Assembly: GCA_036405135.1 (NCBI GenBank)
Contig: DASWYF010000048.1
Coordinates: 186,001-250,000, forward strand
Source of the DNA: Verrucomicrobiia bacterium
GTDB lineage: Bacteria > Verrucomicrobiota > Verrucomicrobiia > Limisphaerales > JAEYXS01
Reading direction: 5' to 3'
Length of the DNA stretch: 64,000 nt
A program made the translations under genes and the position numbers. How positions within the stretch are numbered: the first letter of the stretch is position 1; every line of letters begins with the position of its first letter. This document shows positions 1,740 through 48,056 of the stretch, piece by piece. Below the pieces are notes generated by a model. That model worked only from the letters and a program-made list of their open reading frames with translations, ran no database searches and was not told where the DNA came from.

Positions 1740-4700
1740 CTACTTCTTCTTCAAAAGCTCGATCGCCTTGTCGAGCTGAGGATCGCGTCCGTTCAACCAG
1801 TCATCCGGTGACATGGGCACACGGACATCCGGCACTTCGCCCAAATTTTCCATCGGCGTGCCATCGAGACGGAAGACACCGCTCTGGGGCATGCGGGCAT
1901 TAGTGCCATCGACAAGCCGCATATTCATCGTCCAGATGACGTAGCCGGGCGTAGGCATGCCCACGAGCTGCGCCAAACCACGTGTCCGCATGGCGTTCGG
2001 GAACATCTCGCCATTCGAGTAGCTATGCTCGTTCATGAGCACGATCACGGGCTTGTCCCAAGCGCGGGAAGGACCAGGCTCAGGAGCGCCATCACGCGGA
2101 CGGAACCACGAATGCTGCTTGCGCTCCAGCCAATCGATCAGTGTGTCCGAGATATTGCCGCCACGATTGAATCGCACATCGATGATGAGGGCTTCCTTGC
2201 CTGCGATGTATTCATACGCCTCGCGCTCGAAGCGCGTCTGGTCATCACGACCCATGGCGGAGATGTGGAGATAACCGATCTTGCCCTCGCTCTTCTGTTC
2301 CGTCTCACGGCGTGATTGTTCGATGCGGTTGTTGTAGAGGAGGTTCTCCCAGTCATTCGCGCGGAGCGGGCGGTATTTCACAATGCGTGCGCCTTCGCGC
2401 TTGGGTTCGGAATTCACGAGGAACTCGAACAGACGGTCGCCCTTGTCGTTGATGGCTTCGTAGAGGCCTTCACCGGGTTTAACGTCCAGTCCGTTGACGG
2501 CCACGACATATTCGCCTGGCTGGATGCGTGTTTTCTCGAAAGAGCCTGGTGCACCTTCCGGCACCTTGGCCACGCGCAGGCCAGGCCCTTTGTGTGAGTA
2601 ATCGATTTCGAAACCGAGCTGCGGCGTGCTGGCATTGCGCACGGCATTCGTCGCCGCGCTTACTTCGCTATGGGAGGCTTCCAGTTCGCCGATCATCTGG
2701 TTGAGCAGGCCGGCGAATTCATCGTTGGTATCCACGGAATGGAGCAACGGCTCATAGCGTTTGCGGATGGCGACCCAGTCGCGACCATGGAAATTAGGAT
2801 CATAGAAGCCACGATTGTAAGAGCGCCAGAACTGGGTGAACGCGGCCTGCCGCTCATCCGAAACATCACGCGACCACTCGGCGAGGAAGCTGATCTTCTC
2901 GGGGTTCATCGCATCGGGGAGACGGGCCTTGAAGAGTTCTCCGTTATTCACGAAGTAGATGGAGTTGCCATCGCGCGAGACGCGCAGCGCAGATTTGTTG
3001 CCGCCGGTCGTCAGGCGCTTGGTGGTCTTGCCATCATAGGTGAGAGACCAGACATCGCGCTCCGAGAGGAAGAGGATCAGCCCTTTGATGCTTACGGTGA
3101 TCTCGCCGTCCGGATATTGCGTGGCCACGCGGCGGATGCGACGGGTGATGTCTGTGAAATCGATATCCACCTTCACATCATCCGTCGGACGTTCGTATTT
3201 CAGTTCGGCATCGTCGAGGCGGGCTTCCTCTTTTTGCAACGGCAACACATAGAGGCCGTTGCCATCGCGAGTGCTGCGGAAGAAGAGATACTTGCCATCT
3301 GGCGACCACGCGGGATCACCATGGTAGGCGTTCAAGCGCGTGATGTTCACCGCTTCGCCGCCTTTGGCCGGGACGATATGGAGATTCCACGAACGCCCGG
3401 CGGCTTCCGCAGCATAACAGATCCATTGGTTGTCCGGCGACCACGAAAGATCGCCACCACCGATGCCGTTCCACTGCGGGGCAGGTTGCGCGACGATCTT
3501 CTTCACGGACTTGTCCGCGAGCGTGAGCACGTAAAGGCCGCCCTCTGAACCGGCCACCCAAAAAGCCATCTGTTTGCCATCCGGAGAAAGACAGAGCCGG
3601 GTGACATCTTCCGGACGTTCCCACAGCGGTGTGACCTTGAGCGTGTCCATGGCCATCTCGTAGATGCGCACGTTGAACTCGCGGTCTGAGGTGAAATACA
3701 TCTTCTTGCTGTCCGGCGACCAGATGAAATCCGAGTCATCACCCACCCATTCCGTGAGGCGGCGGGCGAACTCGCTGTTGCGCGCATCCGGCCCTTTGGA
3801 TTTTTCCATGGCCACGGTCCAGATATCCCCGCGCAGGCCGAAGGCGAAGTGTTTGCCATCCGGTGAAGGCTCCGCTTCCGTCACATCCTTGGAAAGCGTT
3901 TCACCGCGACGCGTCGTCTGTTTGGAATCTACCGAGACAAAGAGCGTGAGCTTGTTCGGCTTGTTGGAGCCGCGTTTGATGAGCCACAAATCCGAACCAT
4001 ACTCGAACGCCACATCGGCCGACTTCGAGGCGACACTCGGCCAGCGCACGCCCCCTCCTACGAAATTGCTCCAGCGCTTCCGTGTGCCATCCGTCTCGAT
4101 GAACCAGAGATTCGGCGTGCGGTCGGCATTATCCGTGATCTTGGGGATGGTTTCGCCGACCTTCGTGGTGCTCGGTGTCTGCTCGGCGATGGACACGGCG
4201 ATCATGCGTTTGCCATCCGGCAGGAACTGCGGCCACAACTGCTGAAAACTGTTCGTCGTTACCGGACGGCGCGATTCCGAACCCACGTTCATGAGCCAGA
4301 TCTGCTCCGCGGCTGAACCGACATAGCGCGGACGCGTGGAGGGAAAACCATAACGGCCATAAACGATCTGACGGCCATCGGGCGAGAAACTCGCGGAATC
4401 GAGCTTGGCATAATCTTCCGTATAACGCGTGAGGCCGAAGGTTTCCACATCGATGCCGTAAATGCCGAAGTTCGCGGAATCACGTTTGCCGGTGAAGAGC
4501 ACTTGTTTGCCATCCGGGCTCCAACCGGTGGGCATGTCCGGTCCGCCATGCCACGTGAGGCGTTGCGCTTCACCGCCGTCACTGGGGATGATGAAAATAT
4601 CCCAACTGCCTTCACGACGGCTGGCGAAGGCGATCCATTTGCCATCGGGAGAAAAGCGCGGATAACCATCGCTCTCGACATGTTGCGTGAGCGGTTGGGC

Positions 4701-4889
4701 GCGGCCGCCTTCGCTGGGGGAGATCCAGATGTCACCGCGATAGACGAAAGCGAGACGTTTGCCATCCGGACTCAGGGCAGGCTGGCGGGCTCCCACGACG
4801 GGTTGTGCCTTGGGCGGAGCCAGTTGGGCGGAAGCCGTCATGGCGAAGGACAAGCCGGAGAGGAGCGCGAAGCGCTTGAGAAAATTCAT
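1740..4889 (-). CDS. tricorn protease homolog (beta-propellers, PDZ, S41 peptidase)
   Basis: A 1049-residue exported peptidase with a clear signal peptide after the chosen start (MNFLKRFALLSG to ASAQ); an ATG three codons upstream is also possible. The N-terminal half has repeated PD40/WD40-like blades of the form SPDGKxxAF. A second propeller follows, then a tricorn C1-like region. The conserved ELEASHSEV near residue 740 carries the catalytic His. Next come a PDZ domain (GEYVVAVNGLDV) and the S41 core, with DVRFNRGGN and the nucleophile motif HSYSNGE near residue 957. Tricorn-type enzymes degrade peptides to small fragments; a signal peptide implies periplasmic action. Length matches the family (about 1050-1100). 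It stands alone between RHS and globin genes. Confidence 0.93.
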   Translation of the reverse strand: MNFLKRFALLSGLSFAMTASAQLAPPKAQPVVGARQPALSPDGKRLAFVYRGDIWISPSEGGRAQPLTQHVESDGYPRFSPDGKWIAFASRREGSWDIFIIPSDGGEAQRLTWHGGPDMPTGWSPDGKQVLFTGKRDSANFGIYGIDVETFGLTRYTEDYAKLDSASFSPDGRQIVYGRYGFPSTRPRYVGSAAEQIWLMNVGSESRRPVTTNSFQQLWPQFLPDGKRMIAVSIAEQTPSTTKVGETIPKITDNADRTPNLWFIETDGTRKRWSNFVGGGVRWPSVASKSADVAFEYGSDLWLIKRGSNKPNKLTLFVSVDSKQTTRRGETLSKDVTEAEPSPDGKHFAFGLRGDIWTVAMEKSKGPDARNSEFARRLTEWVGDDSDFIWSPDSKKMYFTSDREFNVRIYEMAMDTLKVTPLWERPEDVTRLCLSPDGKQMAFWVAGSEGGLYVLTLADKSVKKIVAQPAPQWNGIGGGDLSWSPDNQWICYAAEAAGRSWNLHIVPAKGGEAVNITRLNAYHGDPAWSPDGKYLFFRSTRDGNGLYVLPLQKEEARLDDAELKYERPTDDVKVDIDFTDITRRIRRVATQYPDGEITVSIKGLILFLSERDVWSLTYDGKTTKRLTTGGNKSALRVSRDGNSIYFVNNGELFKARLPDAMNPEKISFLAEWSRDVSDERQAAFTQFWRSYNRGFYDPNFHGRDWVAIRKRYEPLLHSVDTNDEFAGLLNQMIGELEASHSEVSAATNAVRNASTPQLGFEIDYSHKGPGLRVAKVPEGAPGSFEKTRIQPGEYVVAVNGLDVKPGEGLYEAINDKGDRLFEFLVNSEPKREGARIVKYRPLRANDWENLLYNNRIEQSRRETEQKSEGKIGYLHISAMGRDDQTRFEREAYEYIAGKEALIIDVRFNRGGNISDTLIDWLERKQHSWFRPRDGAPEPGPSRAWDKPVIVLMNEHSYSNGEMFPNAMRTRGLAQLVGMPTPGYVIWTMNMRLVDGTNARMPQSGVFRLDGTPMENLGEVPDVRVPMSPDDWLNGRDPQLDKAIELLKKK

Positions 4890-5077
4890 GGGAGGCACAT
4901 GGATTTTGTAAGGTGTTCTCTCAGTGCGGTCAAATGCGGAGAGCTACGTGTCCGCAGGGCGCTGGTGAATTGCTGCCAGCGGATATCAGTAAGCAGATCG
5001 GGTTACGGAGGGGCATTTCGTGTGCCAAACTATTCCGAAATTGCTTGCGGCAGTTGCCTTCCCGAGGAATGGCCCCA

Positions 5078-5464: not shown

Positions 5465-5618
5465 AACTGCAGCGAACATAACCGCGAACGCGGCGCGTGG
5501 GGAATATTTTCCTGGGTTTCACGCTCTCACAGTAACGCAAAATTAGCGGATGCCTCGTTGCAATCGGACCAAATGCGCCTATTTTTTTAAAACTTAACTA
5601 ACTTTGTCGTTCCCGAGC

Positions 5619-6767
5619 ATGAATACTCAAACCATGAGCTTCCCGCCCTTCAGCCTGTCACGGTTGTTGACCACCGTTTTCGACCCCTCTGGCGGCCAGC
5701 GGGTGGCCATCCTCATCGATCTCGCCGATCCCAAACTGGTGAAGGACTTTGCCTTTCTGAAAGACCCCAAGCTCACCATCCAGCGCCATGCGCATGATGT
5801 TTTCTATCAAGGCTTCAAGCATGGTGCGCTCGCGGAGATGAAGCTCACCGGCGGCGATCTCTTTGCCTATCAAGTGACTGGCGGCAGCAACCTGGATCTG
5901 CCGGATGTCGCCTACACGCCGGATGGGCGCGAAGTGAAGTTCGAGCAGGACATCTATCCGAAATACGATATCATCCTCTGCATCTCCACTTACTCCGCGA
6001 CCGCTCCTCTCACTGCCTTCGCCAAGCAATACGGCTTCCGTGGAGCCACCATGCACGGCATGAACGACATCATCCTCAGCAGCGGTCTCGCAGTGGATTA
6101 CAACGACGTGTCGCGCCAAGCTGAGAAGCTCCGCCTCGCCATGACCAAGGCGGACAAGTTCGAGCTAGATTATGCCGTTGCTGGAAAAACTTACACGCTC
6201 ACGCTGATCACCGAGCAACAGGAAGCGCAGAAGAGCCACGGCCTTTGCCGTGGCACGAAACCGGATGTGGCGAATCTGCCAGCGGGCGAAGTTTACTTTG
6301 TTCCGCATGGCGCGGAGGGGCAGTTCCCGATGCGTTATGAGAATGGCACCATCGGCCTCATGCATGTAAGCGGTGGTCGCATCCAGAAGGCGACGCTCTT
6401 GCAAGGCGATCAGGCCACTGTGGACGCGCACAATGCCAAGCTGAAGAGCGATCCTATGACGGGCGAATTGGGCGAGCTCGGTTTCGGCACGCAGGTGTTG
6501 CCCGTGTCCGGTCGCGATATTCAGGATGAAAAAGTCCTCGGCACTGTGCATGTGGCCACCGGTCGCAGTGATCATTTGGGCGGCAGTCTCACGCCGGACA
6601 AGTTCGCGAACCACAAGAACGCGACGCACGATGACATCCTCTTCGCCCCGCACAAGACGCCGGAGATCAATGTGCCGCAGGTGCGTATGTTCCGCGATGG
6701 CAAGACGACGGTGGTGCTGGAGAATTACCAGCCTGCCGAATATTTGCGGCAGGCGTTGCAAGCGTGA
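5619..6767 (+). CDS. M29-family aminopeptidase-like protein
   Basis: A 382-residue cytoplasmic protein without signal peptide. The C-terminal part (GELGFGTQVLP, then DEKVLGTVHVATGRSDHLGG and ATHDDILF) resembles the metal-binding core of M29 thermophilic aminopeptidases, which carry E-L-G-x-G-T-N, DEK-GT-H-A-G and H-D motifs. The family cleaves N-terminal residues with two divalent metals. Start choice is uncertain: TTG at 5604, ATG at 5619 and ATG at 5634 are all in frame, with weak ribosome binding sites. It ends 13 bases before the OvoA-type methyltransferase gene, so the two probably form an operon; a link to ovothiol or peptide thiols is inference. Confidence 0.75.
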   Translation: MNTQTMSFPPFSLSRLLTTVFDPSGGQRVAILIDLADPKLVKDFAFLKDPKLTIQRHAHDVFYQGFKHGALAEMKLTGGDLFAYQVTGGSNLDLPDVAYTPDGREVKFEQDIYPKYDIILCISTYSATAPLTAFAKQYGFRGATMHGMNDIILSSGLAVDYNDVSRQAEKLRLAMTKADKFELDYAVAGKTYTLTLITEQQEAQKSHGLCRGTKPDVANLPAGEVYFVPHGAEGQFPMRYENGTIGLMHVSGGRIQKATLLQGDQATVDAHNAKLKSDPMTGELGELGFGTQVLPVSGRDIQDEKVLGTVHVATGRSDHLGGSLTPDKFANHKNATHDDILFAPHKTPEINVPQVRMFRDGKTTVVLENYQPAEYLRQALQA

Positions 6768-6780
6768 GTTATATTGCGCT

Positions 6781-7542
6781 GTGAGTTCCCCTTACTACGA
6801 GAGTGATCGCGCGGTTTCCGAATACCTGCTGTTCCATTACGGCACGGCGGAAGAAACCTTGCCGTATCCTTCCGGGCCGCGGGATGCGCTCTTTTATCCC
6901 GTCCGCTGCGTGGTGAATTGCCTGGACACCGGCTCGTTGCCACCCGATGCCCGCGCGCTGGATATCGGCTGCTCGGTGGGCCGTTCCAGTTTTGAACTCG
7001 CCCGCCATTGCACAGAAGTCATCGGCATCGATTACTCGAAACGCTTTGTGGATGTCGCTACGCGCCTGCGCGATCAAGGCGGCATCAACTACGTCTACGT
7101 GGAGGAAGGTGACATCACCCGCTCCGCCGTGGCCGTGGTGCCGACAACGATTGATCGCCGTCGCGTGCGCTTCGAGCAGGGGGATGCGCAGGAATTGCGT
7201 GAAGACTTGGGCCAGTTCGAAGTGGTCTTTGCGGCGAACCTCATCGACCGCCTGCGTGAACCGCTGGCGTTCGTCCGTCAATTACCGGACTTGGTGAAGC
7301 CCGGCGGCCAACTCATCCTCACCTCGCCTTATACCTGGCTGGAGGAATATACACCGCGTGAGAAATGGCTGGGTGGCACGGCCCGCGATGGCCGGGCGCG
7401 CCGCACCGTGGATACTTTGAAAGGGGAGTTGGCGAACAGTTTCGAACTCAAGCGCACCTTGGATCTCCCTTTCCTCATCCGCGAACACGTGCGCAAGTAT
7501 CAATGGAGCGTGGCGCAGGCCAGCGTATGGCGGCGGAAGTAG
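6781..7542 (+). CDS. stand-alone OvoA-type 4-mercaptohistidine N1-methyltransferase
   Basis: A 253-residue SAM-dependent methyltransferase starting at GTG 6781. The opening YYESDRAVSEYLLFHYG, the SAM loop LDIGCSVGRSSFELAR, then FAANLIDRL and the block PYTWLEEYTPREKWLGG match the C-terminal methyltransferase domain of OvoA (ovoA_Cterm family). That domain places a methyl group on N1 (pi) of 4-mercaptohistidine, giving ovothiol A. In the usual OvoA this domain is fused behind DinB-like and sulfoxide-synthase domains; here it stands alone and no sulfoxide synthase is visible within the window. The end is intact (WSVAQASVWRRK). It follows the M29-like gene by 13 bases and is followed by an inverted-repeat element. 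Confidence 0.88.
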   Translation: MSSPYYESDRAVSEYLLFHYGTAEETLPYPSGPRDALFYPVRCVVNCLDTGSLPPDARALDIGCSVGRSSFELARHCTEVIGIDYSKRFVDVATRLRDQGGINYVYVEEGDITRSAVAVVPTTIDRRRVRFEQGDAQELREDLGQFEVVFAANLIDRLREPLAFVRQLPDLVKPGGQLILTSPYTWLEEYTPREKWLGGTARDGRARRTVDTLKGELANSFELKRTLDLPFLIREHVRKYQWSVAQASVWRRK

Positions 7543-7690
7543 TGGAGCGCGACTCTCCGAGTCGCAGCAACATCCCCAAAACCTGAGGAAAAAGGAGACG
7601 TCTCCGCGTCCCCTCCATAAATTAAGCGCTGATGTTTTCACACCTGTTCTTGCTTAGGAACCTTGCTGCGACTCGGAGAGTCGTGCTCCA
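7543..7690. repeat. MITE-like element with 28-bp terminal inverted repeats
   Basis: Bases 7543-7570 and 7663-7690 are inverted copies matching at 27 of 28 positions, enclosing 92 bases without a gene. Each end contains a smaller palindrome (CGACTC/GAGTCG). The element begins directly at the stop codon of the methyltransferase gene. Another element at 11765-11923 and a palindrome at 8798-8826 share the outer words GGAGCG/CGCTCC. No transposase is nearby. Confidence 0.75.
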
Positions 7691-7735
7691 TCAGGCTTCT
7701 TGCCGAACCTCCCTCCCATTGCTTAACTCCGCGCG

Positions 7736-8773
7736 TTGCGTTCGCTGACGTCCATTTTGGAAAGCGCCGGCCCATGGGCACCTTGGGCCTTCTTCGGCCT
7801 GTTCATCGCTGCCTCTCTCCTCATGGTCTGGCGGCTGGAGGCCATGACACGAAATGGTCTCGGCGGCACCGTGCTCGGCACGCTCGTCATGCCTTACTGC
7901 TCCGGCATCGGCAACCTCATGTTCGCCATTTTGCTGGCGCAGGATAAGGGCGATGGGGCGGAAGTCATCGTGAACTGCATCGTCAACAATGCCACCAATC
8001 TCACCCTGCTCATCGGTGTGCCCACCTTGATCTTCGGGATGAACATCGCGGGCAAAGACTCCGGCGGCGGGAAGAAAGCGAAAGCCGATAAAAAAGGCAA
8101 AGGAGAGAAAGGCGGAAAAGGGGAACAGCAAAAGCAAGTGAACCGCCTTTCCATGATGCTCACGCTGGTAGCGGTGCTTTTCTTCACCGGCGCGCTCTGG
8201 GCCTTGGCGCGCGATGGCAAACTGGATTTCAACGACGGTCTGGTGCTCGTCGGCATTTTCCTCTTCTGGCAGTGCTTCCACGTCTATGACGTCATGAAAG
8301 CAAACGTACAGCAGAACAAGGCCTTGGGCTGGCTCATGATCTTGGATTTTGCCGTGCTCACCGTCGGCGGCTACGGGATTTATCTCAGCACCGACTGGCT
8401 GATGAATTGGGGCAAGGCGCAGGAGTTCGCCTTCTTGAAAGAGGACAACGGCATGGGCTGGGTCAGCGGCTTCCTGATGGTGCTGCCGAATGCCATGCTG
8501 GCCCTCTACTACTCCTGGCGCGGCAAACCCGATGTGACCTACGCCTCCCAGGTGGGCGACGGTCATATTTGCATTCCGCTCTGCATCGGTCTCTTCGCGT
8601 TGTTTCAGCCCATCAATGTACCGCAGACGTTGGAGCTCGGCGTGTGGATCATCGCGGGGGCTACAGTGGTGCATCTGCTGTTCATGGCGTTGCTGGGGCG
8701 GCTGCCGAGATTTGTCGGCGTGTTGCTGATCGCGGCCTACGCTTTCTTCCTGTTCAAGGGGTTGTTCAAGTAG
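7736..8773 (+). CDS. sodium/calcium exchanger-like membrane protein
   Basis: A 345-residue protein with about ten membrane segments in two halves. The first repeat (GLGGTVLGTLVMPYCSGIGN, then VNNATNLTLLIG) and second repeat (GWVSGFLMVLPNAMLALYY, then GDGHICIPLCIGL) are the paired alpha-repeat pattern of cation/Ca2+ antiporters, though the usual G-N-x-x-E core is altered to PNA. A strongly basic loop (residues about 100-130, rich in KKAK and KGKGEKGG) separates the halves. The start must be TTG at 7736, because an in-frame TAA lies at 7724 and the first ATG falls inside the first membrane helix. Substrate is unknown; ion antiport is inferred from topology. Confidence 0.7.
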   Translation: MRSLTSILESAGPWAPWAFFGLFIAASLLMVWRLEAMTRNGLGGTVLGTLVMPYCSGIGNLMFAILLAQDKGDGAEVIVNCIVNNATNLTLLIGVPTLIFGMNIAGKDSGGGKKAKADKKGKGEKGGKGEQQKQVNRLSMMLTLVAVLFFTGALWALARDGKLDFNDGLVLVGIFLFWQCFHVYDVMKANVQQNKALGWLMILDFAVLTVGGYGIYLSTDWLMNWGKAQEFAFLKEDNGMGWVSGFLMVLPNAMLALYYSWRGKPDVTYASQVGDGHICIPLCIGLFALFQPINVPQTLELGVWIIAGATVVHLLFMALLGRLPRFVGVLLIAAYAFFLFKGLFK

Positions 8774-41659: not shown

Positions 41660-44600
41660 TCATTTCTGATCCTCCACGACCGTCACGCGCAACTCCGCGC
41701 CGTTGCAGCGGATCTCCGGCACATACATCGCGTGGCCCAGCACGGGCAACGCGTGGAATTGTCCCGGCGCTTCGGCACGGAAGTCGTAGCGGATCTCCCA
41801 CACGCCTTCCGGCAGCTTGTCGATGAACAGCGCCACCTTGCGATCGCGCAGTTCCTGATATACCCAGCGTGAACGCCCGGTGTGATCGTCATTTTGTGGC
41901 GGCAAGGGACGAGTGACCACCGGTCTGCGTGCGGCGATCCCCGGCGCAGCCGCCTTTGAACTTTGAACTTTGAGCTTTGAACTTGCCACTGGTTCGGCGG
42001 CCGCATGCTTCCGCTCCACTGCTGCGGACTTCAGCTCCCGCGCATACAAAGACTCCCCGCTGCGGATCTCCACCGCCTCAAAACCAGCGGGCTTCAAATC
42101 CTCAAACAGCAGATACTCGTAATTGTTCTTCGTCTCCACCGTGATGACCGTCTCGATGCGTTCGCCGCTCTTCACACTCTCACCATCTTTCAACGGCATC
42201 TTGTCATACACATAACCCTTCAGCAGCGTCGGGCGACCGACGAGCTTGAAGTATTCGCGTTTCACGAAAATCTCATTTCCCGCCGCCGGAATCGGCTCTT
42301 CCAAGCTGAAGAACTTTGCTTCCGCCGCGAAGTAGATGGAACCTTCACCCTTGCGCTTGATGCGGATATCATTCGCACCATCTTTCACGAGCGTGGCGGG
42401 CACTGCGAAGCGGCTCGGTGCATTGAACACATCCGCACCGCTCACCTTGCGTTCCGCGATCTTCTTGCCGTTCACGGTGATCTCGTATTCCAGTTCCGGC
42501 TGCAACTCGCCGCTCACGCGCAGGTAATCATTCATCGCCAGCACGACCATCGCGGTATCACGCGTATTGCTCCATTGCGCACCGCGACGATTCTTGATGA
42601 GCCAGTTGCTCACGGGTTCCACCAATTTATTCTTCGGATCAATCGTGAGTAGGGCGCGCAAACCCCAAGCCGTCGCTTCCACGCCACCATCGCTCCAACG
42701 CCACCAGACACCATCTTCACCCCAATGCGCCGTGCCCATCACACCAGCATTCGTAGGCACGCCCGCGACAAGGAGCGACGTGTCCGGACGATCATCCTTC
42801 TTCACACCGTTCTCCAGATTCGCGATCAACGTCTTCGCCTCCGGCGTCTTGCCAAGGTGATGCGCGGACAGTGCGAACAATGCGCGGGTGTAAGCGTTCA
42901 AGTCATCGCGTTTCTTCCACAGATTATCGAACGCCTTTTGCTGGAACGCCGATACCTTGCCCGTCTTCTCCGCGCTCATGTAAACCGCGAGCGCGTGCAA
43001 CATCCACGCCTGCATGTCCGGATTCACCTCTTCTTCCACCAACGTCTTATCGAGATACGATGCGCCACGTGAAAGGGCATCGGCTTTGATCTCCGTGCCG
43101 GATTGCTTCGCGAGTGTCAGCCCCCAAACGACGTAAGCCGTCATCCAGCGATCGCTCTCACCTTGTTTCCACCAGCCCCAACCGCCATCGCCATGCTGGA
43201 AGTCATAGAGCCGTGCCAGACCGCTCTTCACCATGTCATCCAGCCGTTCGAGATTCTTCTTACCCTTAGGCTGCGTGGCTGCGACGTTCGCTTGCTCGAT
43301 ACCACCGAACACCTTGCCCATCACATCCTCCGGTTGCAGACCGAGATCTTTCAAGGTCTTCGCCGTCACCACGGCAGGCAGGAAGCGGCTCATCGTCTGC
43401 TCAGTGCAGCCGTAGGGATAATCGATCAGGTAAGGCAACGCATCGAGCATTGTCACCGCCATGCTCGGCGCGACTTGAACCGTGAGCGCCGTCGTCTCGC
43501 GTTTGCGTTCCTTCGGAATGTCGAGCTTCAGCGTGATCTCGCTGCCACGCACCTTGCCCGCCTTGGTGATGAACTTCTCGATGCCGTGCTCATGCACCAC
43601 ATACTCTTTCTCCATCGCATCAGAATACTTCCCACCGATAGCCGTCGTCTTCACCTTGATCGGGCCGTCCTTGTTCACGCGGGCTTTCCAGTCGGCCCGC
43701 GCTTCGCTGTTCGCGGGAATCTTTAGCGTGACCGCTTTGGCCGCGCCGTAATCATTTCCACTCACCTGAAAGGTGAGCGACGGAACCGGCAGACGTTTAT
43801 CCGCCTCAGCAGTCGTACCGGTAAACGTAGAATCTAACGACACCTTCACGCTCATCTCCTCGCTGGTGTTATTGTTCACCACGGCAGAGAGCACGACTTC
43901 ATCGCCCACCACAAAGAAACGCGGCGCTTGCAGACGCACGATGAGAGGTTGCTTCGTGCGCGTCGTCGCATCGTCACCACCGAACTGGTTACCCTTCGAT
44001 ACCGCCCGCGCCGTGGCTTTCCAACCTGTGAGGGAATCCGGATACGTTACTTCCACCGTCGCTTCACCCTTTGCATCTGTGATTACCGTCGGTTGCCAGA
44101 GAATGGTGGACCGGAAGTCGTTTCGCACTTGCACGGCAGGTTCATCCACCGGTTCATTCGCGGCTTGCTGCTTCATCTTGCCTTCCGCTTTTAATGCTGT
44201 GCCCAGACTACGTGAAGATTTCGCCATCTCCATCGCTGGAGCTGGTGCGGCTGCAGCCATGGGTGTTGCCGCAAAATCCATAGCAATGGCGCCACGGGCC
44301 ACCCCTCCCCCTACGCCTGCCGATTGAGTCTCCACCGTTTCCGACTCTGAATAATAATCCTTCCTGGCATCCCGCTCTCGTCCGGCCTGACGCCGTGCTT
44401 CTTCGCGCAACGCTTGTTCTGCCGGGATGAGTTGCTTGTTCTCGCCTTCAACCAGTTTCACAAAACTCTTCTGATTAAACGTACTCTGGTTCTGCGTGAT
44501 GTTCGGACGCTTCGTGCCGTAGAAGAACCGGCGCATATCACCCGCGTAATCACCCTGGATGTAATAGACCGATTCATCCACCAACGCCACGGACACCTCC

Positions 44601-47600
44601 GCACTGACCGGCTTACCCGCGTCATCCTTCGTCGTGACCTTGAGAGAACCTTTCTCGCGTGCCTGATACTGCTCACGATCCGGCTTCACATCCACCGTCA
44701 GGAAATTTTTCGTGGGTGGCACGATGACTTGGCGTGTATCCATGTGGAATTGCTTCTCATGCACCATGCCGGCGCTGAGGAACACGTTCGGCACGTGCTT
44801 CTCTTCCACGAGGATGTGTAGCATCTTCGTCGGCCCATCCATCCGCACGAGGCGATAGCTGTCGAGCCGTTCGCCTTCGATGCTGAAGAGCACGAAGCGG
44901 CGTTCACCATTCGCCACCAGCATCACGGAAGCTTCATTGCCCACGCGGAAGGTGTCCTTGTCCACAATCACCGAGATGCCGCCCGTGCGATAACCCGTAT
45001 CCGTCGTCGCATTGCTCGCCACCCACACGCGCGTTTCCGCGTTGATCGGTTGCGGCAGACGGTTCGGCACCTGATCCTTCGTCAGATAGGCGATGCGATA
45101 ATACCCTTCCTTCTCCGCCTTGAAGGCGAACTCACCTTTGCCTTGCGCATCGGTCTTGAGCGGTTGCTTGAGGATCGCTTCCTGTTCATAGCCGCGGAAT
45201 TTCAGTGTCCAATCTTTCTGATCGGGACGTGTGGGCAACGGCGGCCAGATCCTAGTCTGCGCTTTCATGCGCTTGAGGTCATCACCCTTCACTTCCTTGC
45301 CCTCGGGCGTCAGCCAGATCTCCCACCAATACTCGCGCGTCACACTCACTTCACCTTCCGTCTTCACCGGATTATTGTTCGCATCCAGCGCGGTGATTTC
45401 CACCTTCGTCTGATCTTTCGGCGCGATGACCTGCCGATCTGGTTTCGCTGTGAGGTAATAACGCTGGCGCGTCACGCGCACGGTGCCATTGCCCACGATC
45501 TCGCGACGTGAGGCATCGATCACGCGCGCCTCGATCTGATATTCGAAATCCTGTCCGCTGTTCGCGGGCGTCTCGAACTTCACGATCGCCTTGCCCGTCG
45601 CATCCGTCTTGAGCGTCTCGCGTTTCAGGATCTGGCCGCGACCGCCACGGCCCCAATGGTTCGGCTGCGTATCCATGTCCTCATAGAACCACGGGAACTC
45701 ACGCGGTTGCGGGTTAAAGAAGTAATACGGATTCTGATACACCACTACCTCCACGCTCGCATTCGCCACTGCACCGCCGAAGTAATAATCCGCTTGGATG
45801 CTCGCCTCGACCTGCTCACCCACACGGAAGATCTTGCGCTGACCATTCTCCTCCGGCGTCTGCACCGCCACCTTGAATTCCGGCAGCTTGTATTCTTCCA
45901 GGCGGAACAACGCGGCCTCACCGATGTAGTTGTTCTTGTTCTTTTCTAGGAACGTCACGCGATATTCACCGAGGCGCAGGGATTCCGTCAGCTCCAGTGA
46001 GCCGGAGTAACTGCCGAACTCGTTCAGCTTGATCTCGCCTTCTTTCAAGAGCGCATTGTCCGGTCCCGCGATGCGATACCAGATCGTCTCATTCGCCGGG
46101 GTAGAATACACGGAGCCATTGTCACGGCGCGCGATGATCTTCCACTCCACATGCTCCTTCGGACGATAAGCCGGGCGATCAGTGAACGCATACACGCGCC
46201 ATGGTTGTTCGCCGCGTCCATAGCGATAACTGTTCCCCAAGCTGAACGCCTGCCTGTCCTTCGCCACCGCACCCACATAGATTTCGACACTGTTCGCTGT
46301 ATCCTTCAGTTCGAACAAAGCCAAACCATCCTGATCTGTCGCCTTGTCGTGCTGGCTCCACTGCCAGCGATTACCATCATGGAAACGCTGCCAGACTTTC
46401 ACCGTGCCATTCACCAGCGGGGAACCATCCAGCGCATTGCAGAAATAAACGAGCGCCTGCTTGCCTGAAGTCTTCAACACGATGGAAGCATCTGTCACCA
46501 GCACGATGTCGCGGGTGGATTTCCCACCCGCTTTCGCTTCCAGCACATAGGCACCTGCCGGAAGCTTGCCTTCATACCGGAGTTGCGCGTTGCCTGGATT
46601 GTAGTCGCCCTTGTCTTTTGTATCGTGCTTCCACGTCTTAACTTTTTCGCGACCATTCAATTCGATGGATTGCAACCAGTTCTGGCGGCGCTCTTCATTC
46701 CCCGCCATCTGCACATCCTTCGCGAGATTCACCGGGTAGAGCGAAAGCTCGATCTCCTTAACATTCCGCCAGTTCAGATAATACTGCACTTCGGAATCCG
46801 GCAGAAAGATATGCGAGATGCCTAGCCCCAATTGCACACCCGTGATCTCGTTGATCCGTTGCTGCGCCTGTTCGAAATAACGCGTCTCACCTTTGGTGAA
46901 CTCCGCCACCAGCTTGCGGAACATCTCCAGCGCTTTCTTGTTATCCGGCTCCTGTCGATAGTTACCGTTCTCCGTGGGAACAAATCGGCCCTGATGCATC
47001 ATCCACTCACCGTATTGATACAGCGCATCGTCATACCACTCGTTGCCTTTGCCGAACTTGATCGCCGCCTCGAATTCCTCCGGCACCCGTTGACGTTGCT
47101 CAAAGCTGCCGCCCTGGTTCTTCAACGTCATCGCGATGAGATAACGGAACTGCGCCTTGTCGGTATCCGTCTGCGCGATCTTCAATGCATTCTCCAAGAC
47201 ATTCAGCGGCAGATAATTTCCATAATAGCCGTACGTGTACCAGCGATCCACCTGCGCGGGCTTCGCTGCCTTGCGCACGATGCCGAGGTAACGCTCACGC
47301 GCCAGATTCACATCCCTTGCGCCTGCCCACCATTCGAGCGCCGGTTGATAATTCGCCCAGCCCGGATGCCAGTTCACACTGTTCTTCCGCATCCACCAGA
47401 AATCGCCGAGCGATTCCTTCACCTCTGCCCAAGTCTGGTCCTTGTCCTCCTCCCGCGTGATGTCACGCACCATCACTTCGAGCGCCTGTCGCGCCTGATC
47501 CTGCTTCGTCGTATCGGCTTGCTGTGTGGATGCCGCAGAACGCCATTGCGTGTCCGCGAGGCGAAACTCCACCCATCGCGTATCCGCCGTCGAAAGCGTC

Positions 47601-47764
47601 AACGCTTTGGCTTTCGCATAAACCTCGTTCGCCTTCGCATACGATTTCTCAGCGAACAACTTTTCCGCTTCCGTTTTCAACGGCGCATACTCGGCAGTCG
47701 TTTGGGAATGCAGGGAGAATACCGTAAAGCAGGCCACCATGGCCAAAGCCAGCAACGTTTTCAT
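41660..47764 (-). CDS. bacterial alpha-2-macroglobulin with thioester
   Basis: A 2034-residue exported protein; the signal is MKTLLALAMVACFTVFSLHS. The first 330 residues are helical repeats. Macroglobulin domains follow (RPAYRPKEHVEWK, then TDATGKAIVKFETP). A bait-like low-complexity stretch rich in Ala, Met and Gly lies near residue 1170. The A2M block TILWQPTVITDAKGEATVEVTYPDSLTGWK precedes the thioester motif PYGCTEQTM near residue 1452. The thioester-containing helical domain (GDGGWGWW) and receptor-like domain complete the protein. The CxEQ motif suggests covalent trapping of proteases in the periplasm. Unlike E. coli YfhM there is no clear lipobox, and no pbpC partner is nearby. A heptamer repeat interrupts its C-terminal region. 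Confidence 0.93.
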   Translation of the reverse strand: MKTLLALAMVACFTVFSLHSQTTAEYAPLKTEAEKLFAEKSYAKANEVYAKAKALTLSTADTRWVEFRLADTQWRSAASTQQADTTKQDQARQALEVMVRDITREEDKDQTWAEVKESLGDFWWMRKNSVNWHPGWANYQPALEWWAGARDVNLARERYLGIVRKAAKPAQVDRWYTYGYYGNYLPLNVLENALKIAQTDTDKAQFRYLIAMTLKNQGGSFEQRQRVPEEFEAAIKFGKGNEWYDDALYQYGEWMMHQGRFVPTENGNYRQEPDNKKALEMFRKLVAEFTKGETRYFEQAQQRINEITGVQLGLGISHIFLPDSEVQYYLNWRNVKEIELSLYPVNLAKDVQMAGNEERRQNWLQSIELNGREKVKTWKHDTKDKGDYNPGNAQLRYEGKLPAGAYVLEAKAGGKSTRDIVLVTDASIVLKTSGKQALVYFCNALDGSPLVNGTVKVWQRFHDGNRWQWSQHDKATDQDGLALFELKDTANSVEIYVGAVAKDRQAFSLGNSYRYGRGEQPWRVYAFTDRPAYRPKEHVEWKIIARRDNGSVYSTPANETIWYRIAGPDNALLKEGEIKLNEFGSYSGSLELTESLRLGEYRVTFLEKNKNNYIGEAALFRLEEYKLPEFKVAVQTPEENGQRKIFRVGEQVEASIQADYYFGGAVANASVEVVVYQNPYYFFNPQPREFPWFYEDMDTQPNHWGRGGRGQILKRETLKTDATGKAIVKFETPANSGQDFEYQIEARVIDASRREIVGNGTVRVTRQRYYLTAKPDRQVIAPKDQTKVEITALDANNNPVKTEGEVSVTREYWWEIWLTPEGKEVKGDDLKRMKAQTRIWPPLPTRPDQKDWTLKFRGYEQEAILKQPLKTDAQGKGEFAFKAEKEGYYRIAYLTKDQVPNRLPQPINAETRVWVASNATTDTGYRTGGISVIVDKDTFRVGNEASVMLVANGERRFVLFSIEGERLDSYRLVRMDGPTKMLHILVEEKHVPNVFLSAGMVHEKQFHMDTRQVIVPPTKNFLTVDVKPDREQYQAREKGSLKVTTKDDAGKPVSAEVSVALVDESVYYIQGDYAGDMRRFFYGTKRPNITQNQSTFNQKSFVKLVEGENKQLIPAEQALREEARRQAGRERDARKDYYSESETVETQSAGVGGGVARGAIAMDFAATPMAAAAPAPAMEMAKSSRSLGTALKAEGKMKQQAANEPVDEPAVQVRNDFRSTILWQPTVITDAKGEATVEVTYPDSLTGWKATARAVSKGNQFGGDDATTRTKQPLIVRLQAPRFFVVGDEVVLSAVVNNNTSEEMSVKVSLDSTFTGTTAEADKRLPVPSLTFQVSGNDYGAAKAVTLKIPANSEARADWKARVNKDGPIKVKTTAIGGKYSDAMEKEYVVHEHGIEKFITKAGKVRGSEITLKLDIPKERKRETTALTVQVAPSMAVTMLDALPYLIDYPYGCTEQTMSRFLPAVVTAKTLKDLGLQPEDVMGKVFGGIEQANVAATQPKGKKNLERLDDMVKSGLARLYDFQHGDGGWGWWKQGESDRWMTAYVVWGLTLAKQSGTEIKADALSRGASYLDKTLVEEEVNPDMQAWMLHALAVYMSAEKTGKVSAFQQKAFDNLWKKRDDLNAYTRALFALSAHHLGKTPEAKTLIANLENGVKKDDRPDTSLLVAGVPTNAGVMGTAHWGEDGVWWRWSDGGVEATAWGLRALLTIDPKNKLVEPVSNWLIKNRRGAQWSNTRDTAMVVLAMNDYLRVSGELQPELEYEITVNGKKIAERKVSGADVFNAPSRFAVPATLVKDGANDIRIKRKGEGSIYFAAEAKFFSLEEPIPAAGNEIFVKREYFKLVGRPTLLKGYVYDKMPLKDGESVKSGERIETVITVETKNNYEYLLFEDLKPAGFEAVEIRSGESLYARELKSAAVERKHAAAEPVASSKLKVQSSKAAAPGIAARRPVVTRPLPPQNDDHTGRSRWVYQELRDRKVALFIDKLPEGVWEIRYDFRAEAPGQFHALPVLGHAMYVPEIRCNGAELRVTVVEDQK
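41955..41985. repeat. heptanucleotide tandem repeat inside the macroglobulin gene
   Basis: Four seven-base units (TTTGAAC, TTTGAAC, TTTGAGC, TTTGAAC) and a partial unit. On the coding strand they give the low-complexity residues SSKLKVQSSK. Because seven is not a multiple of three, gain or loss of one unit would shift the reading frame of the last ~100 codons. Confidence 0.8.
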
Positions 47765-48056
47765 GACAGTAACCATTCTAACCGATTTTCCATTAACTCG
47801 CATATAAATTCGTCCTTAGTTCCCATCTCGTAGCCGCCGAGTTGAAGAGGCGGAACTGACTTTTCCACCCGTTCAACCGCCTTACCTTTAACATTTTTAT
47901 CATTAAACGATTCCACCGCTATCACTCCGCTCGCTGTACACCACTACGCTCACACTATTTTTCATGGATGTGACCTTAGCGGCATTTTCCTTAACCTGTT
48001 AGCCTTCGGTGCGGCCGGTGAGCTCCATGGAGACAAAATTCATCCTTTCTCGAAAT
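47765..48056. other. 292-base intergenic region with a dispersed repeat
   Basis: It lies between two leftward genes. No gene is seen. CCGCC and GGCGG near 47837-47852 can pair, and bases 47846-47860 are the exact inverse complement of 60184-60198. The promoter of the macroglobulin gene should be here, but I cannot place it. Confidence 0.5.

Follow-up and report, generated by a model that had tools for sequence, protein, structure and literature searches.

A predicted metalloprotein as the constant partner of a stand-alone OvoA-type methyltransferase, and a possible OvoA-independent ovothiol-type pathway

A predicted metalloprotein, here called c1, was found to be the constant partner of a putative stand-alone methyltransferase of the OvoA C-terminal type. 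Both genes lie on the + strand of the window, which is the whole 64,000-nucleotide stretch analyzed (positions 186,001 to 250,000 of contig DASWYF010000048.1 from a Verrucomicrobiia bacterium). The uncharacterised c1 protein (382 aa; 5619-6767, with ATG 5619 as the start and ATG 5634 also possible) was assigned a predicted M29/NicX fold from its structural model and recognized as a partner from co-occurrence, and its stop codon lies 13 nt before the GTG of the methyltransferase gene (6781-7542). The stand-alone methyltransferase alone is ordinary, and c1 is the real find. The two proteins very probably act in one pathway. As a tentative explanation, we propose that c1 would make the thiohistidine substrate in a pathway that leads to ovothiol, or to a near analogue, independently of OvoA.

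The methyltransferase was identified by family model, PDB matches and a structural model. The open reading frame is intact and contains the block SPYTWLEEYTPREKWLGG. TIGR04345 (ovoA_Cterm), the NCBIfam model of the putative 4-mercaptohistidine N1-methyltransferase forming the OvoA C-terminal domain, gave 238.3 bits against a curated cut-off of 170, with an E of 8.6e-71 that lies far outside chance, and residues 6-252 were aligned with the profile from end to end (1-242 of 242). The nearest PDB chains by sequence were those of stand-alone OvsM, OvoA_Th2 and stand-alone OvoM, with 228, 202 and 168 bits, respectively. Furthermore, the AlphaFold2 model (pLDDT 94.9) was superposed on OvsM with a Z of 33.5 and 1.5 Å over 240-241 residues and on OvoM and OvoA_Th2 with Z values of 32.0-32.6, which places it in the OvoM/OvsM fold. 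The next PDB neighbours were the carnosine N-methyltransferases, with Z values of 17.2-19.3. By family model and fold, the 253-aa product is a predicted SAM-dependent N-methyltransferase of the OvoM/OvoC type, and N-pi methylation of 5-thiohistidine is its predicted reaction.

OvoM from Sulfuricurvum sp. (PDB 9bxl-9bxn) and OvsM from Marinimicrobium koreense (PDB 9bxh-9bxk) are stand-alone 5-thio- and 5-selenohistidine N-methyltransferases, and since their crystal structures already represent stand-alone enzymes, this state is not new in itself. The window enzyme resembled them in standing alone, in its similar length, in its fold (Z 32-33.5, 41-50% identity) and in keeping most conserved residues. 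It differed from them in having c1, rather than a recognized sulfoxide or selenoxide synthase, as its partner, and in carrying H/W instead of T/H at positions 236/242. Compared with the bifunctional 5-histidylcysteine sulfoxide synthase/methyltransferase OvoA (OvoA_Th2, PDB 8khq), the enzyme was homologous over the whole domain, but no DinB/FGE sulfoxide synthase core was fused to it or encoded elsewhere in the genome.

The earlier note on this DNA had described a full OvoA C-terminal domain of 253 residues with its own GTG start, and the intact frame and the end-to-end match agreed with this description. Its statement that no sulfoxide synthase is present could be extended from the window to the source genome (5.8 Mb, 52 contigs, 97.8% complete), in which TIGR04344, the model of the OvoA core (cut-off 400), reached at best 41 bits, over the FGE part only. 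With no match above this value, a frameshift-joined or distant OvoA core, which the note had named beforehand as evidence against its view, was ruled out. The note had also considered that the pathway might be split, and had suggested a genome search for an EgtB/OvoA-like sulfoxide synthase. A split with the OvoA core encoded elsewhere was not borne out: besides the negative TIGR04344 result, the search gave no EgtB-type protein in the source genome, none of 146 genomes sampled from the order had an OvoA core over the cut-off in the model search, and none was found over the cut-off among 65 c1-bearing genomes tested, which were taken from the 80 best among at least 511 relatives of c1. Eight of these 65 had any TIGR04344 match at E<=1e-15. 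EgtB was rejected as the substrate source, as EgtB-type proteins occur in some relatives (L049 with 577 bits to TIGR03440, and L050-L053, which look alike by reading) and none in the source genome. The ovoselenol pathway includes the selenium-transferring partner OvsA and selenosugar genes; no OvoA-like core with the full architecture was found in the source genome. The best core match in the order (313 bits, below the cut-off) belonged to a 517-aa OvoA-core-like protein of genome G031 (L047:1246-2796). This protein has no methyltransferase part and carries HDLIHFQ at the place of the HX3HXE of OvoA/EgtB, and G031 also has c1 and a stand-alone methyltransferase.

The co-occurrence of c1 and the methyltransferase was investigated at three scales. 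In the order sample, the methyltransferase was present in 38 of the 146 genomes (36 over the cut-off, plus G088 at a contig end and G008 at 147 bits), and the 38 regions analyzed lay around 37 loci of the methyltransferase and, in G008, around a second, weaker homologue. All 38 genomes also encoded c1. In 32 of them (the window counted), c1 precedes the methyltransferase on the same strand at a distance of at most 1 kb, and in the other six (G122, G102, G019, G027, G048 and G031) it is on another contig. Conversely, c1 was found without a family-level methyltransferase match in G078 and G116, which are 56% and 84% complete, respectively, and as a fragment of about 70 residues without the methyltransferase in G061 and G094. 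Moreover, six families (f7, f9, f14, f23, f35 and f48) contained members with both genes and members with neither, and therefore the two genes appear to have been gained or lost together.

At the level of the phylum, 194 Verrucomicrobiota genomes were sampled. Of these, 28 had full-length c1 (>=549 bits), 35 had the methyltransferase (TIGR04345, E<=1e-20) and seven had an OvoA core over the cut-off. The 35 methyltransferase genomes were exactly the union of the 28 c1 genomes and the seven OvoA genomes, and the intersection was empty. The association of c1 with the methyltransferase gave a Fisher p of about 6e-34 with the OvoA genomes left out and kinship ignored. The non-overlap of c1 and OvoA alone had a probability of 0.33 by chance, and the weight of the pattern lies in the exact cover and not in this non-overlap. 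The methyltransferase was fused in six of the seven OvoA genomes (five proteins of 705-738 aa, and one of 725 aa in G373). G373 has in addition a second, stand-alone methyltransferase without c1. In G338, OvoA is encoded in two frames of 561 and 428 aa (G338:C1:2889965-2892704) and the core model was matched twice, which indicates a frameshift or a partial duplication.

The third set came from a GTDB-based collection with at least 511 c1 relatives and comprised the best 80 of these, with mostly Verrucomicrobiota titles, some Planctomycetota and a few other labels. The methyltransferase was present within the locus in 51 of these best 80 named-genome loci, and in 46 of the 51 it directly follows c1 in the same orientation. 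Among the other 29 genomes, 27 encoded a methyltransferase over the cut-off elsewhere; the exceptions were G155, with only a weak match of 93 bits, and G150, in which none was found. Several named-genome loci are contigs of the other samples (for example, L093 and G123:C59 are both 14,846 long), and the order and named-genome counts are thus not additive.

In Planctomycetota, the rule that a methyltransferase has either c1 or OvoA as its partner is looser than in Verrucomicrobiota. A total of 294 genomes were scanned twice, with at most nine and at most six candidates scored per genome, and weak members may be missed at this depth. TIGR04345 matches were obtained in 17 of the 294 genomes, seven of them over the cut-off. 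Six of the 17 were fused OvoA proteins (G572, G594, G537, G567, G511 and G646) with core scores of 568-683 bits, and none of these genomes had c1. Full-length c1 occurred in five genomes: the methyltransferase adjoins it in G487 and G615 and lies elsewhere in G445, G155 had only a weak methyltransferase match, and no methyltransferase was found for G466, which is cut by a contig end. The G615 methyltransferase (tree row L301) was missed in the genome scan and was found beside c1 by tblastn. For the methyltransferase-like proteins of G416, G535, G468 and G542 and for the weak matches, neither partner was found in the scans. The methyltransferase-like proteins L287 and L289-L297 (90-159 bits to TIGR04345, below the cut-off), some from genomes in which the scans gave no OvoA core and no c1, are perhaps another subfamily.

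The exchange of partners was examined in a methyltransferase tree of 120 rows, from which 11 rows shorter than 200 aa had been dropped, and in a subset of 40 rows, which was hand-picked to hold the main groups; the groups for testing were defined once the first tree was known. In both trees, the OvoA-fused domains appeared in two places. The first group, with OvoA_Th2, OvoM and the verrucomicrobial OvoAs, fell in a clade with OvsM and the c1-linked enzymes L202-L204 (100/99). The second, consisting of L281-L284 from Planctomycetota (core 568-602 bits), was nested among c1-linked verrucomicrobial enzymes (98/92). A single clade of all OvoA- or OvsA-partnered rows was rejected (p-AU 0.017). The two placements together with this rejection therefore support at least one exchange of partner, and there was probably more than one. 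The c1-linked enzymes of G162, G163 and G169, which have the T/H motif, fell in the clade of OvoA, OvoM and OvsM (100/99), and in these three genomes the OvoA-core search at E<=1e-15 was without a match. A topology that separates the T/H-type rows from L202-L204 was not rejected (p-AU 0.19), and a position of L202-L204 strictly within the OvoA clade is thus unsecured. To judge from these trees and the genome counts, c1 and the OvoA core behave as apparently interchangeable partners for a single family of methyltransferases. In the simplest view, both would supply this family with the same substrate, which is 5-thiohistidine for OvoA.

The earlier note had spoken of a coupled M29-like peptidase. 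The coupling proved stronger than it had stated, as the gene is real, lies 13 nt upstream and was tied to the methyltransferase in order, phylum and named genomes. The peptidase label fared less well. In profile searches, no family was found over its cut-off for c1; Pfam PF02073 (M29) gave 13.4 bits (E 0.035) against a cut-off of 27, which leaves c1 outside the family by this test. The model of c1 (pLDDT 92.6) had its nearest fold in NicX, 2,5-dihydroxypyridine 5,6-dioxygenase (PDB 7cn3, 7cup), with a Z of 25.9 over 308 residues at 3.6 Å and 14% identity (VIA-align). For the M29 aminopeptidases, the Z values were 17.8-19.0 (PepS 19.0, AmpT 18.4, AmpS within the range), and for the crocagin proteins CgnE and CgnB they were 13.6 and 12.2, respectively. 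In the model, the fold of c1 is thus nearer to NicX than to the M29 peptidases, although its predicted metal ligands are M29-like. A further open reading frame, c9, was rejected as a divergent gene and is an antisense frame of c1. A scan of positions 5480-7760 for promoters and terminators gave nothing above chance.

The metal site was predicted from conservation, from bridging alignments and from a motif. Profile searches with c1 gave no direct sequence link to M29 or NicX chains of the PDB. A bridge was found in the haloarchaeal M29-family protein L313 (43.1 bits to Pfam M29, over the cut-off), with which c1 was aligned at a probability of 98.2% and which itself was aligned with NicX and AmpT. 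The five predicted ligands span positions 6288-6635 (+): E224 (6288-6290), E286 (6474-6476) and H311 (6549-6551) were mapped onto M29 through L313, and H337 (6627-6629) and D339 (6633-6635) were assigned by motif only. In M29 enzymes, the residues E, E, H, H and D are the ligands of a dinuclear metal site. All five were invariant in 100 c1 rows (67 and 32 rows from overlapping sets and a repeat of the window row), in four distant Planctomycetota c1 rows and in eight paralogues. By motif, H337-x-D339 matched the terminal HxD of NicX and CgnB. The iron ligands of NicX are His265, Ser302, His318 and Asp320 (PMC7910607). Through L313, E286 of c1 fell on the NicX position counted as His265 and the HxD was kept; the position of Ser302 was not serine in c1 in the bridged alignment, and the NicX iron-ligand set was thus not found. 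By sequence, c1 has a predicted M29-type dinuclear site within a NicX-like architecture. It resembled the M29 aminopeptidases in fold and five-ligand pattern, and differed from them in its score below the Pfam cut-off, in its length (382 aa vs about 410) and in its link to a small-molecule methyltransferase.

Residues specific to c1 include H146, N149, Q204, K205 and H207. No cysteine was invariant, as Cys121 and Cys210 of the window protein were replaced in the distant Planctomycetota rows, and a cysteine-based sulfur relay through an internal persulfide was therefore ruled out. A paralogue family about 32% identical to c1 was also observed, with L303-L312 from Planctomycetota and second copies in G384, G284 and G257; it shares the predicted metal ligands of c1 and reached the cut-off of no Pfam family, and its genomes are mostly without the methyltransferase. 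Weak paralogues with 75-141 bits were present in G325, G358, G384, G284 and G257 of the phylum sample.

In the proposed pathway, c1 would take the place of the OvoA sulfoxide synthase. As a predicted metalloenzyme in the fold of NicX, a non-heme iron dioxygenase, and of the dinuclear M29 aminopeptidases, it would most likely yield 5-thiohistidine (or a compound close to it), whose pi nitrogen would then be methylated with SAM by the OvoM-type enzyme, giving ovothiol A or an analogue. The individual claims differ in strength. The substrate of the methyltransferase is likely a 5-thiohistidine. That c1 itself attaches the sulfur is a tentative proposal, and slightly more tentatively c1 might be regarded as the founder of a new imidazole-sulfurising class, which would place sulfur at histidine C5 and replace OvoA in Verrucomicrobiota and some Planctomycetota. 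The nearest fold, that of NicX, already serves an iron enzyme with oxidative chemistry on an N-heterocycle, which was counted in favour of c1 as a synthase. The ligands argue the other way, since c1 keeps the M29-type E, E, H, H and D and not the mononuclear His/Ser/His/Asp set of NicX, and this favours hydrolytic chemistry.

Accordingly, a hydrolytic role has to be weighed, in which c1 would be a dinuclear metallohydrolase acting on an N-acyl, gamma-glutamyl or peptide conjugate, either taken up or internal, and the 5-thiohistidine set free would be methylated to ovothiol. Such salvage is rather unlikely. The full M29-type ligand set and the weak M29 Pfam similarity fit it, and N-acetyl-5-thiohistidine is a known bacterial product (PMC12631010). 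The neighbour survey covered 125 distinct regions, of which 94 contain the methyltransferase. About 12 of the 125 had an ABC transporter for polar amino acids (SBP_bac_3, permease, ATPase) within four genes, which again suits salvage; however, the transporter was missing from most regions. Moreover, salvage of ovothiol itself needs no methyltransferase, so that the supply of an unmethylated conjugate would be required, and the fold of c1 is nearer to NicX than to the peptidases. The reading that c1 supplies the substrate draws on the replacement of OvoA by the pair as a unit, on its having no need of a constant transporter and on the precedent of the discovery of MES, discussed below.

A thiopurine-S-methyltransferase (TPMT)-family gene was located 3' of the methyltransferase in nine of the 94 regions (L127, L142, L155, L172, L248, L251, L252, L254 and L125), with overlapping frames in six when the longest-ORF starts are taken; it fits a thiol metabolite and was counted for the ovothiol-type pathway. 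The transporter and the TPMT-family gene together fit a thiol amino-acid metabolite, though they are not universal. No sulfur-donor gene was consistently linked to the pair in the surveyed regions. Other neighbours were a PQQ-propeller protein in seven regions and an ADP-ribosylglycohydrolase-family gene in four; the latter adjoins the methyltransferase or c1 at L230-L232, L074, L105 and L158. Within the window, a truncated-haemoglobin-type gene (PF01152; 5078-5479, - strand) is divergent from c1, and a tricorn-protease-like protein with PD40 repeats, Tricorn_C1 and peptidase S41 is encoded at 1740-4898 (- strand). A protein of 2047 aa (41660-47803, - strand) reads like the alpha-2-macroglobulin family and has, by reading, a thioester-type GCTEQ motif.

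The pair may also act on another imidazole and not on 5-thiohistidine, for example on 5-selenohistidine or on histidine itself, either free or within a peptide as when carnosine is methylated; this is unlikely. The possibility was suggested by residues 234-242, REHVRKYQW (7480-7506, + strand), which by alignments and counts correspond to the RET.RK.QH motif of OvoA_Th2, OvoM and OvsM and differ from all three characterized enzymes at 236 (T to H) and 242 (H to W). The motif likely sits at the substrate pocket, judging from its position in the model, where a long late strand ends. The carnosine N-methyltransferases as next structural neighbours and the selenium enzyme OvsM as best PDB sequence match point in the same direction. 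However, position 236 was H in 113 of 131 aligned rows, T in 13, N in one and a gap in four. T236 was found in the three enzymes from the PDB, in the OvoAs of the T/H type and in L202-L204 and L232, which are c1-linked, and the OvoA-fused L281-L284 carry H236. The change therefore does not track the partner, and as H236 also occurs in genuine OvoA-fused methyltransferases, which nest among these enzymes, the substitution alone does not imply another substrate. The candidate view of H236/W242 as the mark of a new substrate is thereby weakened, and the T/H motif of the c1-linked L202-L204 stands against the reading of another imidazole. In addition, Y6, Y15, N153, R157, T191, W196, E235, R238, K239 and Q241 are common to the window enzyme and the three characterized enzymes. 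The alternative named in the earlier note, methylation of another thiol-histidine, may apply.

It is improbable that 5-thiohistidine is made by an unlinked, unrecognized enzyme, for example one of a divergent FGE fold, with c1 as an accessory metal carrier, chaperone or product user. The source genome holds eight FGE-type loci, and the M29-fold proteins CgnB and CgnE are peptide-binding helpers in crocagin synthesis and not peptidases (PMC10070186), both of which would suit such a role. However, L005 and L008, which were read at length, were seen to have long N-terminal parts of another kind and to lack the OvoA architecture, and L001, L002, L004 and L006 are frames of only 288-351 aa. No FGE-type gene was among the examined clusters recurring beside the pair, and an accessory c1 does not explain the OvoA genomes without c1. 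Finally, the missing OvoA core of the source genome might point to an orphan gene left over from an ovothiol pathway that was lost, and now relaxed in its function. This is highly improbable, being contradicted by two intact and strongly conserved proteins (mean column identity across the families of 76% for c1 and 60% for the methyltransferase) and by their co-retention even when unlinked.

The tentatively preferred pathway, with c1 in the place of OvoA, has a parallel in ergothioneine synthesis. The metallopterin-dependent ergothioneine synthase MES was found from genomes with a histidine methyltransferase and without a known sulfur-inserting enzyme (PMC9516567). As in that case, the gene of a histidine-type methyltransferase would be accompanied by that of a non-orthologous enzyme which takes over sulfur insertion; unlike MES, which was tested biochemically according to the same source, c1 belongs to a different protein family, would have a different product and is known from sequence and model. 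Three unrelated classes of sulfur-inserting enzymes, EgtB, EanB and MES, are described for ergothioneine (PMC9516567), and one route, via OvoA and OvoB, is described for 5-thiohistidine in PMC12631010. Our literature searches gave no work joining ovothiol and Verrucomicrobia, and for ovothiol and aminopeptidase only works unrelated by title. The pair frames a concrete question around two small genes, namely what c1 does. If the conserved OvoA-free pair has the proposed role, surveys based on OvoA would have overlooked many Verrucomicrobiota that make or salvage ovothiol-type metabolites, and the M29/NicX fold may host new chemistry.
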